Both the position numbers and the translations under genes were made by a program. Source: Haloferula sp. BvORR071 (GTDB lineage Bacteria > Verrucomicrobiota > Verrucomicrobiia > Verrucomicrobiales > Akkermansiaceae). From it: a DNA stretch of 64,000 bases. Positions 1,584-7,518 of the stretch are shown here, piece by piece. The notes beneath the pieces are model-generated. The model was not told the DNA's origin. It saw only the letters and a program-made list of their open reading frames with translations, and made no database searches. The stretch's first letter is position 1. Each line of letters begins with the position of its first letter. Location of the stretch: NCBI RefSeq assembly GCF_000739615.1, contig NZ_BATP01000005.1, positions 124,001 to 188,000 on the forward strand, in the 5' to 3' direction.

Positions 1584-3998
1584 ATGAAGTCTTTAAGCGG
1601 AATCGCGTTGGTGTTGTTAGGCGGATCCGCGATGGCGGGTTTCACGCCGACCCTGAACTTGATCGAGCCACGGGGCGGGCAGCGCGGGGTGGAACTGGAG
1701 ATGCAGTTCTACGGCGAAAGGCTCGACGGGATCCAGGAGGTGCTGGCCTACGATCCGGGAATCGAGTTCCGCAGCTTCACGGTGGAAAATGACAAGCACG
1801 CCTCCGCCAAAATTTTCATCAAGCCGGATGCCCCCTTGGGCGAGCACGGACTGCGGGTGCGGACCAGCGGCGGGGTGAGCTTCCTCCGCTCCTTCTTCGT
1901 CGGGCAGTTCCCGGTGGTCAATGAGGTGGATCCCAATGACAAGCCGGAACAGGCGCAGCGGGTGGAACTGAACACCACGGTGCAGGGTGTGGCGAAGCAG
2001 GAGGATGTGGACTACTATGTGTGTAGTCTCAAGAAGGGCCAGCGCTTCACCGCCGAGGTGGAGGCGATGCGACTGGGCCGGACGATGTTCGACTCTTACG
2101 TGGCGATCGTCGACCCCAAGGGCTTCGAGATCGCTTCCTGTGATGATGCGGCGCTGCTGCGTACGGACCCTTTTGTTTCCACGATCATCCCCGAGGACGG
2201 CGACTACTGCGTGCTAGTCCGGGAAGCGGCGTACGAAGGAAACGACAACTGCGAGTATCGCGTGAACATCGGGACCTTCCCGCGGCCGAAGGCAGTCTTC
2301 CCGACCGGCGCGAAGGCGGGCGAGACCGTGGAATTCAAGTTCATTGGCGATCCGGCCGGCGACTTCACCGAGAAGGTCACCATTCCGGCGGACGCGGGTG
2401 AGAGGTTCCCGCTCTTCCCGACGCGCGATGGCTTGCAAGCACCCTCTCCACACTGGATCAAGATTTCTCCCGCAGCCTCCGTGGTGGAGGCGGAGCCTAA
2501 CAACGGCGCAAAGGAATCCACTCCCCTGCCCGACCAACCCTGCGTGGGCTATGGCATCATCGGCCAGAATGACGATGTGGACTTCTTCAGATTCAAGGCA
2601 GCAAAAGACGAGGAATTCACGATCCGGGTGCTAGCCCGCGAGCTGCGTTCGCCGCTGGATGCGGTGCTCTCGGTGCGCAACGAAAAGGGCGAGAATCTCG
2701 CGAACAACGACGACCAGGGCGGACTCGATCCGAAGATGCCGCTGTGGAAGGCACCGGCGGACGGAGAATATCACCTGGTGATCCGCGACCAACTGCGGCG
2801 CGGCGGACCGGACTATACCTACCGCGTGGAACTGGAGAAACGCAATGTAGGCATCAGCGCCTCGCTTCCAGTAGTCGAGCGGGACAATTCCCAGAAGTGG
2901 AAAATGATCACGGTGCCGCGCGGCAACCGTTACGCGGCGATGGTGAACATCGCCCGCGACAACATCGGCTGTGATGTCAGCCTGGAAGCGGAGAGCTTGC
3001 CAGCGGGCGTGACGATGAATGCGCCGGTGGTGAAGCGCTCGGTTACGGCGGTGCCGGTGATCTTCGAGGCCGCGGCTGACGCGCCGGTGGCAGGGAGCCT
3101 GTATCGCTTCAAGGTGAAGGCGCTGGAAGATCCGCGGAACATTGCGGGAATCCTGGAGGAGACCATCCACCACGTGGAGATCAATAACCAGGGTCCCTAT
3201 CACTCGGCCAGCGCCGAGCGAATCCCGGTGGCGGTGATCGATGAGGCGCCCTACAAGCTGGAACTGGAGACGCCCGCGGTGCCGATCGTGAAGAACGGCA
3301 CGATGCAGCTCAAGGTAAAGGCGCAGCGCAAGGAAGGTTATGCGGAGGCCATCACGCTGAGATTTTTGTGGAACCCACCGGGAATCGGTTCACCGGCGAC
3401 GGTGACGATGAACGGCGATCAGAGCGAGGCTTTGTACGAGATCAACGCAAACGGCGATGCTCCTCCCGCCGAATGGCAGGTCTGCGTGCTTGGCGAGGCC
3501 AATACCCCGCAAGGACCGGTATTGGCCTCGACCTCACTGGTGCCGCTGCGGGTGGCCGATCCCTATCTAACGATGGCGATGGACATGGCCGCCACCGAGC
3601 AAGGCAAGGCAACGACCTTGATTTGCAAGATGGACTACCCGGCGAAGTTCGAGGGCAACGCGACGGCCGAGGTGTTCGGCCTCCCGCATGGCGCGACGAC
3701 CGCGCCGGTGAGTTTCCCCCGTGGCCAGGCGCAGGTGAATTTCCCGGTGGAAATCGCCGGGGATGCCACGGTGGGCAAGCACACGGCGCTGTTCTGCCGG
3801 GTGACAGTGCCGGAGAAGGGCACAACGATTCTGCACCAGGTGGGGCAAGGCGGGACACTGCGGATCGATAAGCCGGCGGAGAATGCACCGGCTCCTCCGC
3901 CTCAACCGGTGGCGGTAGCTCAGGCTGCACCTGCAGCGCCAGCGGCTCCGGTGGAGAAGCCACTGTCGCGCTTGGAGCAGCTGAGACAGAAGAAGTAG
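1584..3998 (+). CDS. Exported PPC-domain protein paired with DUF1501
   Basis: The 804-aa protein has a signal peptide (MKSLSGIALVLLGGSAMAG). It carries two bacterial pre-peptidase C-terminal (PPC)-like beta domains at about residues 111-230 (EVDPNDKPEQAQ, then DVDYYVCSLKKGQ) and 300-418 (EAEPNNGAKES, then DVDFFRFKA). More beta-rich segments follow, and the C-terminal tail is rich in Pro and Ala. PPC domains usually act as binding or accessory modules in secreted proteins, and no peptidase domain is visible here. Pairing with DUF1501 is common in Planctomycetes and Verrucomicrobia, where the upstream partner is often a DUF1549/DUF1553 protein. Here a kinase lies upstream instead. Function unknown. 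Confidence 0.8.
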   Translation: MKSLSGIALVLLGGSAMAGFTPTLNLIEPRGGQRGVELEMQFYGERLDGIQEVLAYDPGIEFRSFTVENDKHASAKIFIKPDAPLGEHGLRVRTSGGVSFLRSFFVGQFPVVNEVDPNDKPEQAQRVELNTTVQGVAKQEDVDYYVCSLKKGQRFTAEVEAMRLGRTMFDSYVAIVDPKGFEIASCDDAALLRTDPFVSTIIPEDGDYCVLVREAAYEGNDNCEYRVNIGTFPRPKAVFPTGAKAGETVEFKFIGDPAGDFTEKVTIPADAGERFPLFPTRDGLQAPSPHWIKISPAASVVEAEPNNGAKESTPLPDQPCVGYGIIGQNDDVDFFRFKAAKDEEFTIRVLARELRSPLDAVLSVRNEKGENLANNDDQGGLDPKMPLWKAPADGEYHLVIRDQLRRGGPDYTYRVELEKRNVGISASLPVVERDNSQKWKMITVPRGNRYAAMVNIARDNIGCDVSLEAESLPAGVTMNAPVVKRSVTAVPVIFEAAADAPVAGSLYRFKVKALEDPRNIAGILEETIHHVEINNQGPYHSASAERIPVAVIDEAPYKLELETPAVPIVKNGTMQLKVKAQRKEGYAEAITLRFLWNPPGIGSPATVTMNGDQSEALYEINANGDAPPAEWQVCVLGEANTPQGPVLASTSLVPLRVADPYLTMAMDMAATEQGKATTLICKMDYPAKFEGNATAEVFGLPHGATTAPVSFPRGQAQVNFPVEIAGDATVGKHTALFCRVTVPEKGTTILHQVGQGGTLRIDKPAENAPAPPPQPVAVAQAAPAAPAAPVEKPLSRLEQLRQKK

Positions 3999-4172: not shown

Positions 4173-5738
4173 TTAGAACGCGCTGCGGAAGGCGATCTGG
4201 TAAGTCACAGCGCTAAGGTCGCTGTTGCGGGTGCTGAGCTCGTCGTAGGAGACGCCGCCCATGACCTTGAGCACATCCTTGCAGAAGTGGTAGTTCAGGC
4301 CGGCGTAGACGTAGTGGTGCTCGTTGCCGCGGCCGTTATCGACATCGACGGCGGGGTTCTCGTGATCGGCGCGGATGTAGCGGACCGGGAGTTGCAGGCC
4401 CTGGGATTCCGGCGCGCTCCAATACTCGAGTTGGACGACGGCTTGAAGCTTGTCCTCGATGATCCATACCCAGGGCATGACCACGAAGGAATGGAAGTCG
4501 CCGGCGCGGCGGGTGATCAGGAGGTTCGCTCCGCCGTTGTCGCCGTAGATGGCTTCCGCCATCACGCCCCAGCGCTTCTTCTCATAGACGGCCGAGAGCG
4601 ATGCGGCCCAGCCGTAGCCGAGGGCATCGTCGGTGGGGTAAACGAAATCCTCGTCGAGATTGTTCTGGGCGTAGTCCAGATACATTGTGAAGTCCTTGTC
4701 CGGCTTCCACTCGAGGCTGCCGTAGAAGAATTGGCCGTCGTTCCAGCCACCGATGAAATCAGCGTCATCCTCCGCACTGAAGAGGCCGAGGGTGAATTCA
4801 AAGTCGCCCTTGTCCAGCTCGAGGGTCACACCGGTGGGGCGGCTCTGCGAGCCACCGAGCTTCTCGGCGATGGCGCTGCGCTCGATGGTGTAAGTATCGT
4901 CCGAGGACATGTGCTGCTCTTGGGACATTTTCAGCTTCATCCGCCCGTACTTGAGCTTGATGCCGTCGAGAGGGCCGGTGCCGAAGGCCTTGCCGATGTC
5001 GAATTGGAGTGAAGCCTCGTCGAAGCGGTCGTAGCCCCACTCCAAGTCGGTGAAGAGATCATTGCGGAAGCGATCATCCGCCACCAGGTTCACATTGATC
5101 TCCGCCTTGAAGTATTTGAGGAACTCGGTCTTAGTCTCCAAGCGAAGCCTACGGAATTCGTCGTAGTTGTCGTTGAACTCAAGGCCATTGACGTCCTCCC
5201 CTTCGACGTGGACGGCCTGGTAGTGGAAACGCCCGCCGATCTCGAAGGACTGGAACCAAGGGTTCTCCTCGTTGTGATAGAGACGCCCGGGGTGATCCTG
5301 CAGCCAGCTGCACCAATCACCCTCGTTCGAATGCTTGGGAGCCTCGGACTCCACGATCGCGCCCTTGGCGTCGGTCGTGGTCATCACCGGCTCGACACCA
5401 GCACCAGCGGCGACACCGGACTCCGCAGTGACGAACTCGTGGGGCTCGCCCTTGTGCTTGTCCTTATGCTTCTTGCCGTCCTTGTCCTTCTTCTTCCCGT
5501 CTTTGTGCTTATCCTTCTTTTCCCCGTCCTTGTACTTCTCGCCGTCCTTGTGCTTGTCCTTCTTTTCCCCGTCCTTCTTCTTTCCGTCTTTGTCCTTATC
5601 CTTCTTTTTCTTCTCGCCCTTCTCCTCTTTCTTGGGAGCGGCATCCGGGGCGGCCGCGGCCTCCTCCGCCGCGCGGGCGGCAGGCAGGATGGCGAGACTC
5701 AGGCAGGAACAAACGGCAAGGCGGGCAAGGGCTTTCAT
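4173..5738 (-). CDS. OprO/OprP-like phosphate-selective porin with Lys/His-rich linker
   Basis: The 521-aa outer-membrane beta-barrel is preceded by a signal peptide (residues 1-23). The barrel part (from about residue 125) has alternating aromatic strands, ends in a C-terminal Phe (AFRSAF) as expected for BAM-inserted barrels, and resembles Phosphate-selective porin O/P. Between signal and barrel, residues about 36-98 are almost only Lys, Asp, His, Glu and Gly in KKDKHKDGEK-type repeats, which OprP-type porins normally lack. I used the ATG at 5738; an upstream in-frame ATG at 5774 overlaps the preceding gene and would bury the signal peptide. It is last in the VTC-DUF4956-porin operon, 32 bp after DUF4956. 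Phosphate or polyphosphate selectivity is inferred from the family and its neighbours. Confidence 0.8.
   Translation of the reverse strand: MKALARLAVCSCLSLAILPAARAAEEAAAAPDAAPKKEEKGEKKKKDKDKDGKKKDGEKKDKHKDGEKYKDGEKKDKHKDGKKKDKDGKKHKDKHKGEPHEFVTAESGVAAGAGVEPVMTTTDAKGAIVESEAPKHSNEGDWCSWLQDHPGRLYHNEENPWFQSFEIGGRFHYQAVHVEGEDVNGLEFNDNYDEFRRLRLETKTEFLKYFKAEINVNLVADDRFRNDLFTDLEWGYDRFDEASLQFDIGKAFGTGPLDGIKLKYGRMKLKMSQEQHMSSDDTYTIERSAIAEKLGGSQSRPTGVTLELDKGDFEFTLGLFSAEDDADFIGGWNDGQFFYGSLEWKPDKDFTMYLDYAQNNLDEDFVYPTDDALGYGWAASLSAVYEKKRWGVMAEAIYGDNGGANLLITRRAGDFHSFVVMPWVWIIEDKLQAVVQLEYWSAPESQGLQLPVRYIRADHENPAVDVDNGRGNEHHYVYAGLNYHFCKDVLKVMGGVSYDELSTRNSDLSAVTYQIAFRSAF
5444..5633 (-). repeat. Imperfect tandem repeat encoding the Lys/Asp/His linker
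   Basis: The DNA encoding porin residues about 36-98 consists of imperfect repeats of a purine-rich unit (minus strand) coding for KDKHKDGEK-like blocks. Expansion or contraction would change linker length without a frameshift when units are lost in multiples of three. Confidence 0.7.
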
Positions 5739-5770: not shown

Positions 5771-6538
5771 TCACATATCCAGCTCGTTGCCGGTCGGGGT
5801 CAGGATCACGCGGTTGTTGCCGCAGACATGGTGCAGGGCGTCCAGCAGCTTCGGCGTGCTGACACCGAGCTTGAGCTGCATGCCGTAGCGCAGCTCGGTC
5901 ATCATGCCGGCTTGGGCCGAGGAGACGCTGACAAGCTGCACGCGGTCCGTGTGTTCATCAAAGACCGGCTTGAGCAGCTTTTCGAAATCCATGTCGCTGG
6001 TCATGCGCAGGGTCAGCATGTGCGAGGCGCGGCGGGGCGCGAAGGCATCCGTCTTGGTGAGGATCACCACTGCGGCACCGACAATGACGGTGATCACGAT
6101 CGCCATGTCATACATGCGGGCACCGACCACCATGCCGATGGCCATGGCGAAGAAGACGAAGGCAAGGTCTCGCGACTGGCCGAGGGTTCGGCGGAAGCGG
6201 ATTACCGAGAAGGCGGCGAACATACCGAAGGCGATCGCCTGGTTGCCCGCCACCACCATGATCAGAATCGTCGTGACGACGCCAATCATGACCAGGGTCT
6301 GGACGTAGTCTTGGGAATAGCGGGTACCCTTGTAGGTCTTCCGGTAGATCGTCGCGATCAGCAGGTTCAGCACGAGGCTGATCGCCATCGCGAAAGCGAC
6401 CTCTTCGAAACCGGGCTTGGTCGGCACCCCGTCCTTCATCGTAGGACCGAAGAAGTTATCGAAAACGTGAAGTGCTTGAGGGGCGGTGTCGGCGGCAAGG
6501 CTAACAACAGAATCGGCTAGGGCGGCAAACGGGTACAT
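5771..6538 (-). CDS. DUF4956 membrane protein, partner of VTC polymerase
   Basis: The 255-aa protein has about five membrane helices in its first 165 residues, including AFAMAISLVLNLLIATIY, a VMIGVVTTILIMVVAG helix and FAVFFAMAIGMVVG-like segments. It contains the conserved FSVIRFRRTLGQSRDL loop and ends in a soluble alpha/beta domain of about 85 residues. This matches DUF4956, a bacterial family often encoded beside VTC-domain proteins. By analogy with eukaryotic VTC, where the catalytic domain is tied to a membrane channel, it could anchor the polymerase or conduct phosphate/polyphosphate. That role is inferred. It lies 44 bp after the VTC gene and 32 bp before the porin. Confidence 0.85.
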   Translation of the reverse strand: MYPFAALADSVVSLAADTAPQALHVFDNFFGPTMKDGVPTKPGFEEVAFAMAISLVLNLLIATIYRKTYKGTRYSQDYVQTLVMIGVVTTILIMVVAGNQAIAFGMFAAFSVIRFRRTLGQSRDLAFVFFAMAIGMVVGARMYDMAIVITVIVGAAVVILTKTDAFAPRRASHMLTLRMTSDMDFEKLLKPVFDEHTDRVQLVSVSSAQAGMMTELRYGMQLKLGVSTPKLLDALHHVCGNNRVILTPTGNELDM

Positions 6539-6582: not shown

Positions 6583-7518
6583 CTAGCGTGCTTTCGCCGG
6601 GTGCAGGAGCGCGAGGAATTTCAGCGCCAGCACGCGGAAGATGCCGCCGGTCTTGGCCGGCTCCGGAATGCGGGCACGGCGCGGCAGCGCGGAAGTGGAA
6701 GGAGGCAATGGCCGGCCCTTGTCATCCACGGGATTCGGATTGTTTCGCACGATCCGCTCTGTGGGTGCCGGATTAGGGCGGGGCAATCTGCCCGTTTTGC
6801 CCTGAAATTCATACATTTCCAGCGCGGCGGTGTACTTGCTGAAACCCCGGGGCACCAAGTTATATTCGCCGATCAGGTTACGAAACCAGAAGGGCACGGG
6901 ACCGATGGTCTTGACCTCCATGACCGCCGAGCCGGGCTCCAGCAGGGGCAGCTCGAAGTCAGGATCGTCCGGCGTGAGCGGGATCAGGCGGAAGCGGCAG
7001 CGGGGATCGATATCGAAGGTGATGCGGATAGTCCCGCTCGGACCGCTGTCGAAGGCGTAGCGGTGATAGCGGATCTGGACGACCGGCTTGCCACCGCGGA
7101 CGTTCAAAAGATCGTTGATTTCGGCCCGCACGCGCTCATCGATCGCGCTGGGAGTGCCTTGCTGCGCGGGGATGTGGCCGGCGGAGAGCTGGGGCAGATC
7201 CTCGAGGCTAACCGGGATGCGGCGCTTGACGGTCACGCCGTCGAGCTTGTGCTTCACCTCGACAAAGGCGCTGGGCGGGATGGCACCGTCAGTACGGCCG
7301 TAGAGCCGGCTGCGGACGCGGCGGCGATTCGGCACGTCGAGCTGCTTCTGCCAGTAGCTGGTGCGCTCGTCGGTGTCGAAATACTCGGAAAGAATGGGAT
7401 AGCCGTCCTCGGCACCGCGGTCGGCGACCATCAACTCGCCCACGCGGGCGCGAAGAACCCCCGCCAGATGGGGGGGCAGCACGAACTTGAATTCCCTGCG
7501 ATTTTGATTGGCGTCCAT
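6583..7518 (-). CDS. VTC-domain polyphosphate polymerase
   Basis: The 311-aa protein matches the VTC catalytic fold. It has an N-terminal RREFKFVLPP basic strand, SEYFDTDERTSYW, FVEVKHKLDGVTVKRR, VVQIRYHRYAF, IRITFDIDP, VMEVKTIGPVPFW and a C-terminal FSKYTAALEMY. These supply the Arg/Lys residues and the Glu residues on beta-strands that line the triphosphate tunnel in VTC/TTM enzymes. The family makes polyphosphate from nucleoside triphosphate. There is no SPX domain and no membrane helix, so the DUF4956 partner probably supplies membrane attachment. The last 60 residues are Pro/Arg-rich and poorly structured. It is first in the operon, 193 bp downstream of a Pho-box-like site. Confidence 0.85.
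   Translation of the reverse strand: MDANQNRREFKFVLPPHLAGVLRARVGELMVADRGAEDGYPILSEYFDTDERTSYWQKQLDVPNRRRVRSRLYGRTDGAIPPSAFVEVKHKLDGVTVKRRIPVSLEDLPQLSAGHIPAQQGTPSAIDERVRAEINDLLNVRGGKPVVQIRYHRYAFDSGPSGTIRITFDIDPRCRFRLIPLTPDDPDFELPLLEPGSAVMEVKTIGPVPFWFRNLIGEYNLVPRGFSKYTAALEMYEFQGKTGRLPRPNPAPTERIVRNNPNPVDDKGRPLPPSTSALPRRARIPEPAKTGGIFRVLALKFLALLHPAKAR

Follow-up and report, generated by a model that had tools for sequence, protein, structure and literature searches.

Why should an outer-membrane porin encoded beside a polyphosphate polymerase carry, ahead of its barrel, a long, lysine-rich periplasmic tail? The question is raised by a three-gene operon in the window, i.e., the whole stretch of 64,000 nucleotides of Haloferula sp. 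BvORR071 DNA analyzed here, in which genes for a VTC-domain protein, a DUF4956 protein, and an OprP-type porin follow one another in that order on one strand (Table 1). The arrangement is common to relatives; the gene downstream of the porin (1584-3998) lies on the opposite strand and is convergent with it. A PDB search with the single VTC sequence gave no match; a profile search recovered the structures of yeast Vtc4 (3g3q, E about 5e-20; 5iiq, E about 9e-20), and in the profile alignment R, K, and E residues of the protein line up with Vtc4 3g3q. Among relatives, R7, E9, K11, R69, R71, E87, K89, K98, R100, R153, R165, E201, K203, and K228 are invariant. By its domain and its active-site-type residues, the protein qualifies, as far as sequence can tell, as Vtc4-like. 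It would not be the sole source of polyphosphate, because 17 of the 18 genomes of the genus encode PPK1 as well.

Table 1. Features of the VTC-DUF4956-porin operon and of the porin N-terminus (positions in the window)
Feature	Position	Strand	Basis
VTC-domain polyphosphate polymerase, 311 aa, gene 1 of operon	6583-7518	minus	Pfam VTC 9e-31
DUF4956 protein, 255 aa, gene 2	5771-6538	minus	Pfam DUF4956 1.1e-17
Porin_O_P (OprP-type) outer-membrane porin, 521 aa, gene 3 (last)	4173-5738	minus	Pfam 9.1e-9, profile, AlphaFold model
Signal peptide, aa 1-23, MKALARLAVCSCLSLAILPAARA, presumed cleaved	5670-5738	minus	Sequence reading; hydrophobic helix in model
Whole disordered periplasmic tail, aa 24-140, about 117 aa	5319-5669	minus	pLDDT, composition
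Lys/Asp/Glu/Gly/His core, aa 36-96, net +13, of PASK composition	5451-5633	minus	Composition
45-bp repeat in tandem (about 2.9 copies), coding for GEKKDKHKDG-type repeats	5484-5608	minus	Repeat search
DWCxWL cap and 16-stranded barrel, aa 141-521	4173-5318	minus	Alignment of homologues, model

The N-terminus of the porin runs from the signal peptide MKALARLAVCSCLSLAILPAARA through AEEAAAAPDAAP, a 61-residue core KKEEKGEKKKKDKDKDGKKKDGEKKDKHKDGEKYKDGEKKDKHKDGKKKDKDGKKHKDKHK, and 44 mildly acidic residues to the cap and the barrel. Residues 36-134 have a pLDDT of <50 in the AlphaFold2 model. Lysine, aspartate, glutamate, glycine, and histidine make up 60 of the 61 core residues (K31 D12 E6 G7 H4 Y1), with a maximum of 12 Lys per 20 residues, much as a sequence-only reading of this DNA had described some 60 residues between signal peptide and barrel as nearly all of these five kinds. 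The Lys-rich stretch, in frame between the two, is a genuine feature. Other parts of that description need adjustment. The limits it gave the linker (5444-5633) fit the core and fall well short of the whole tail; the repeated KDKHKDG blocks are present in modest form, the exact motif occurring only twice, within KDGEKKDKHKDG; and the basic character holds for the core (net +13) and hardly for the whole tail (net +4), which is nearly neutral because the flanks of the core are acidic. Within the core itself, 18 D/E stand against 31 K, making it a polyampholyte.

Named matches among the relatives that we compared are Luteolibacter, Haloferula, and related MAGs of Akkermansiaceae, with the genus represented by 18 genomes and the porin N-termini assessed by direct inspection. 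VTC is present in 12 of the 18, with DUF4956 and a porin adjoining it every time (12/12), and the set is also found in some relatives. In a tree built from the barrels only, a single clade holds the VTC-linked porins and excludes all paralogues (support 100/99, and 94/94 in a later tree with one more member); L140, a VTC-adjacent porin without the tail, falls outside it. The Lys-rich tail is borne by 11 of the 20 sampled members of this clade, namely the window porin and those of G064, G101, G118, G142, G146, G149, G145, G095 (L. pohnpeiensis), G271, and the L215 MAG. Ten of these are recognized by density, with 9 or more Lys per 20 residues; in the eleventh, G145, an in-frame stop interrupts the tail. 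In this MAG (L120 upstream of 5800, also L212), the stop is a TAG shortly past the signal peptide, reflecting sequencing error or decay. Neither 9 or more Lys in 20 residues nor a PASK window (defined below) is seen in any of 77 homologues found away from VTC, a few of which lie near a contig end, where a VTC neighbor is still possible; the densest of them, L060, has a 7-Lys run.

In this sample, tails of such Lys density are thus restricted to porins of the VTC operon, as the sequence-only reading had anticipated in holding that OprP-type porins normally lack such a linker and in tying it to this operon; equal occurrence in porins unrelated to VTC, which it had named as the contrary outcome, is not seen among the porins sampled (20 versus 77). 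With 0/77 paralogues at the same density, we rejected the tail as a family-wide feature, and with 9/20 VTC-linked porins lacking it, we rejected it as a constant part of these porins as well. The tail-less clade members include Haloferula rosea (L041/L225) and, nested in the tail-bearing group, G144 (L. marinus, L121). The tail is therefore dispensable within VTC operons: it is an unusual addition to a porin of known type, and in the sample its occurrence is linked to a single operon. Tail-bearing porins fall into two separate groups inside the VTC clade, and three to four changes are needed on the tree, whether as two gains with one or two losses or as an older gain with more losses. Because the VTC clade accounts for about 6.6 of 24.9 tree-length units (about 27%), the placement of both of two gains in VTC branches is suggestive, not significant.

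Across the aligned tail-bearing porins, linker identity is 25-67% versus 53-85% for the barrel, and the linkers are 58-115 residues long. Every linker aligned retains a core that is dense in Lys and also contains D/E, at 9-14 Lys per 20 residues in nine tails and 11 in L215. Histidine occurs in the tails of the window porin, L037, L039, and L117, and once in L124; it is absent from those of L036, L038, L118, and L119. What is conserved is the density of lysine in a disordered tail, neither a motif nor histidine. Histidine, which the sequence-only reading had named as an ingredient of non-covalent phosphate or polyphosphate binding, thus fails on conservation, besides contributing just 4 of the 61 core residues here, and we rejected His-based binding as the main idea because several tails lack the residue. 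For lysine, the same idea seems reasonable.

A context for this lysine density is provided by known polyphosphate-binding sequences. PASK regions, defined as 20-residue windows that contain one or more K and reach 75% D/E/S/K, are rare in the bacteria used for polyphosphate work; polyphosphate is bound by a disordered, Lys-rich region of YihI in E. coli (PMC12345225). Of the P. aeruginosa proteins tested, EngA and SrmB, which have 9 Lys per 20 residues, bound polyphosphate, whereas those with 5-7 did not (PMC12077175). The window porin contains 46 overlapping PASK windows and its gene alone has such a window among 286 ORFs (1/286) in a 0.42-Mb sample of the genome, consisting of 18 x 20 kb plus the 64-kb window. 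The composition of the tail matches these published classes. Like the yeast PASK proteins, YihI, EngA, and SrmB, it is predicted to be disordered and reaches 75% D/E/S/K and 9 Lys per 20 residues. Unlike these intracellular proteins, the porin is a signal-peptide-bearing outer-membrane protein, and its tail includes Gly and some His. At the bench, the PASK class is recognized by a polyphosphate-dependent NuPAGE shift that is lost with a Lys-to-Arg change.

The published Lys-density yardsticks, together with the Vtc4-like neighbor, lead us to favor the reading of the tail as a putative disordered, periplasmic, lysine-rich polyphosphate-binding arm, which we put forward tentatively and at somewhat less than an even chance. 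Under this proposal, the VTC protein would polymerize phosphate at the inner membrane with the DUF4956 protein as its membrane partner, and the OprP-type porin would be the outer-membrane member of the set. The tail, hanging from the porin into the periplasm, would hold polyphosphate near the porin mouth; alternatively, its cargo might be short chains and phosphate released from polyphosphate, or it might serve to keep porin and polymer together. Three steps of the proposal are inferences: passage of polyphosphate into the periplasm, its binding by the tail, and the importance of this binding for transport. Against the binding arm stand the polyampholytic core, with a whole tail of just +4, and the existence of tail-less counterparts. 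These are the nine of 20 VTC-linked porins noted above and the examined HlyD and efflux-protein partners that other families place after VTC-DUF4956, from which a Lys-rich tail is likewise absent.

The composition of the core exceeds chance: in 10,000 shuffles of the porin, no window of 61 residues contained more than 41 K/D/E/G/H residues versus the 60 observed, and 12 Lys in 20 residues were absent from all of them. One rival, which we regard as realistic but unlikely, is that the tail is a low-complexity spacer, grown by replication slippage and left to drift with no specific ligand, so that its composition is simply what a disordered soluble tail tolerates. Consistent with such an origin, the DNA under the core contains 45-bp (2.9 copies, 82% match) and 27-bp tandem repeats, from which it follows that internal duplication built part of the core; simple charged or Gly-rich codon repeats are frequent in other genes of the genus; and tail length turns over fast, the tail having been lost in G144 and cut by the in-frame TAG in G145. 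However, Lys density is kept across 11 genomes despite diverged sequence. Lys codon use (AAG:AAA) is 27:4 in the core versus 17:3 elsewhere in the porin gene, and because it equals that of the rest of the gene, the core is not a recent pure codon run, which weakens the case for a pure codon or slippage artifact as the origin of the tail. The other repeats, moreover, are mostly Gly-, Glu-, or Asp-rich, not Lys/Asp: a DNA pattern for K/N/D/E runs (RAN x14) has one other site in the genome, and a looser RRN pattern retrieves mostly repeats of these three kinds, located in other genes. Finally, in this sample the VTC-linked porins alone have the tail, though their paralogues offer the same N-terminal site for expansion. 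Two further repeats were noted in passing. In G144, whose porin has no such tail, a KDKDKD... repeat is encoded elsewhere, by a 716-aa ORF unrelated to the porin (L210:60-2210), and L164 (G124:C1:2321636-2321787) encodes a small exported-looking protein with a long Lys-Gly repeat and then CDKCGK at its end.

A second rival takes the tail as a flexible arm that reaches or tethers the porin to peptidoglycan, its N-terminus or Lys amines being bound to the wall non-covalently or linked to it covalently by L,D-transpeptidases (LDTs), with the porin thereby serving as an outer-membrane anchor. The sequence-only reading had also mentioned the cell wall, and binding to it would be realistic; as the account of this tail, we judge tethering unlikely. 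The precedents are several: LDTs link beta-barrels with N-terminal periplasmic tails to peptidoglycan in Coxiella, Brucella, and Agrobacterium, Legionella Lpg1810 is joined to it through a Lys of its periplasmic tail (PMC11841132, PMC12729407), while OmpM combines porin and tether in one protein by way of an N-terminal stalk (PMC10628300). Species with such links tend to have LDT-rich genomes, and in the present genome (G000) 14 genes match the YkuD family of L,D-transpeptidases, a high number for a single genome. The contour length of 117 residues should also exceed the distance to the wall. The porin shares with Coxiella BbpA, Brucella Omp25, Legionella Lpg1810, and OmpM a periplasmic tail that could reach the wall and a genomic setting with many YkuD genes. 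In contrast to them, it lacks an SLH domain and a Gly-Gly start, and has a long Lys-rich core rather than a short motif; what defines the LDT-tethered class is a tail residue covalently linked to meso-DAP. At the known sites, one or two residues suffice, as against 31 lysines here, and tethering leaves unexplained why such Lys density is restricted to VTC-linked porins when the tails of their paralogues are short.

The porin scores 35.5 bits against the Porin_O_P family (PF07396; cut-off 20.9), a profile of the porin family finds OprP (2o4v, E 2e-11), and the AlphaFold2 model, built on a 50-sequence alignment, has 16 long strands with barrel pLDDT mostly >90 and OprP 2o4v as its best fold match in the PDB. 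The family cap pattern, DWCxWL...LY...NP, precedes the barrel. Given the even strand number of this architecture, both barrel ends should lie in the periplasm. The phosphate site of OprP we take to comprise RR, K121, S124, S125, and R133. The RR pair, SS, and R (SS...ER) of this pore region are kept in nearly all aligned rows, whereas a Lys at the K121 position is found in 0/50 aligned homologues, the residue being Q here and Q, A, V, and others elsewhere. Because this position is never Lys, phosphate selectivity of this porin branch is not established and appears doubtful; "phosphate-selective" is a family name for this porin, not a result. Set beside OprP of P. aeruginosa (2o4v; PF07396), then, the porin has the same 16-stranded barrel, fold, and RR and SS...ER residues. 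It differs in the K121 position, in an identity of about 15% by structure, in its long Lys-rich tail, which the OprP chain lacks, and in belonging to a VTC operon. A third alternative, that the tail binds a protein partner, docking with DUF4956/VTC of the inner membrane, or orthophosphate, which it would guide through the porin, draws on the co-occurrence of the three genes, on the conserved pore-region residues of an OprP-type barrel, and on the frequent protein contacts of disordered, charged linkers, but we consider it quite improbable, the K121 position being Q here and never Lys among the 50 homologues and a role as outside collector being excluded for a tail that lies ahead of the barrel and in the periplasm.

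The other genes found with VTC-DUF4956 place the proposed binding arm in a wider setting. In other families of the order, the gene after the pair encodes an HlyD-type adaptor and the next one an outer-membrane efflux protein (OEP), the genes sometimes overlapping. Such sets were seen in the relatives L094, L099, L103, L104, L105, L108, and L110, with HlyD_3 Pfam matches after VTC-DUF4956 in L094, L099, L104, L108, and L110 and OEP/TolC-like matches in L094, L103, L104, L105, and L110. The order VTC-DUF4956-HlyD-OEP resembles an export system that spans the envelope and is centered on a polyphosphate polymerase; in the literature searched, no paper on VTC together with HlyD turned up. In several members of the family to which the window belongs, a pilin-like N_methyl protein, bearing an N-terminal methylation motif, is encoded in third position instead (L096:2589-3344, L127:4051-4803, L138:2524-3348). 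Because the third place is frequently taken by an envelope protein, an envelope role for the VTC product is favored. Second DUF4956 copies without a VTC neighbor also exist (G000:C42, L141:3442-4134; G064:C2, L158:2776-3618). In Gram-positives, a polyphosphate polymerase and DUF4956 lie beside pel exopolysaccharide genes (PMC7112168). That CotH-polyphosphate polymerase-DUF4956 accessory set of pel operons resembles the present one in combining a VTC-type polymerase with DUF4956; it differs in that neither CotH nor pel genes were seen adjoining here, where the third gene is a porin. One could imagine that in Verrucomicrobiota VTC-DUF4956 is the inner-membrane engine of a system spanning the envelope, making polyphosphate and passing it to the periplasm, with an outer-membrane partner, HlyD-TolC-like in some families and an OprP-type porin in others, as the link to the outside and the porin tail as a polymer-catching handle, a general scheme that we regard as speculative and rather unlikely as a whole.

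The VTC-DUF4956-HlyD-OEP clusters open polyphosphate export in Gram-negative bacteria to testing. More generally, a tailed porin beside a eukaryote-type polyphosphate polymerase would offer a handle on the function of bacterial VTC enzymes and on the fate of the polymer that they would make.
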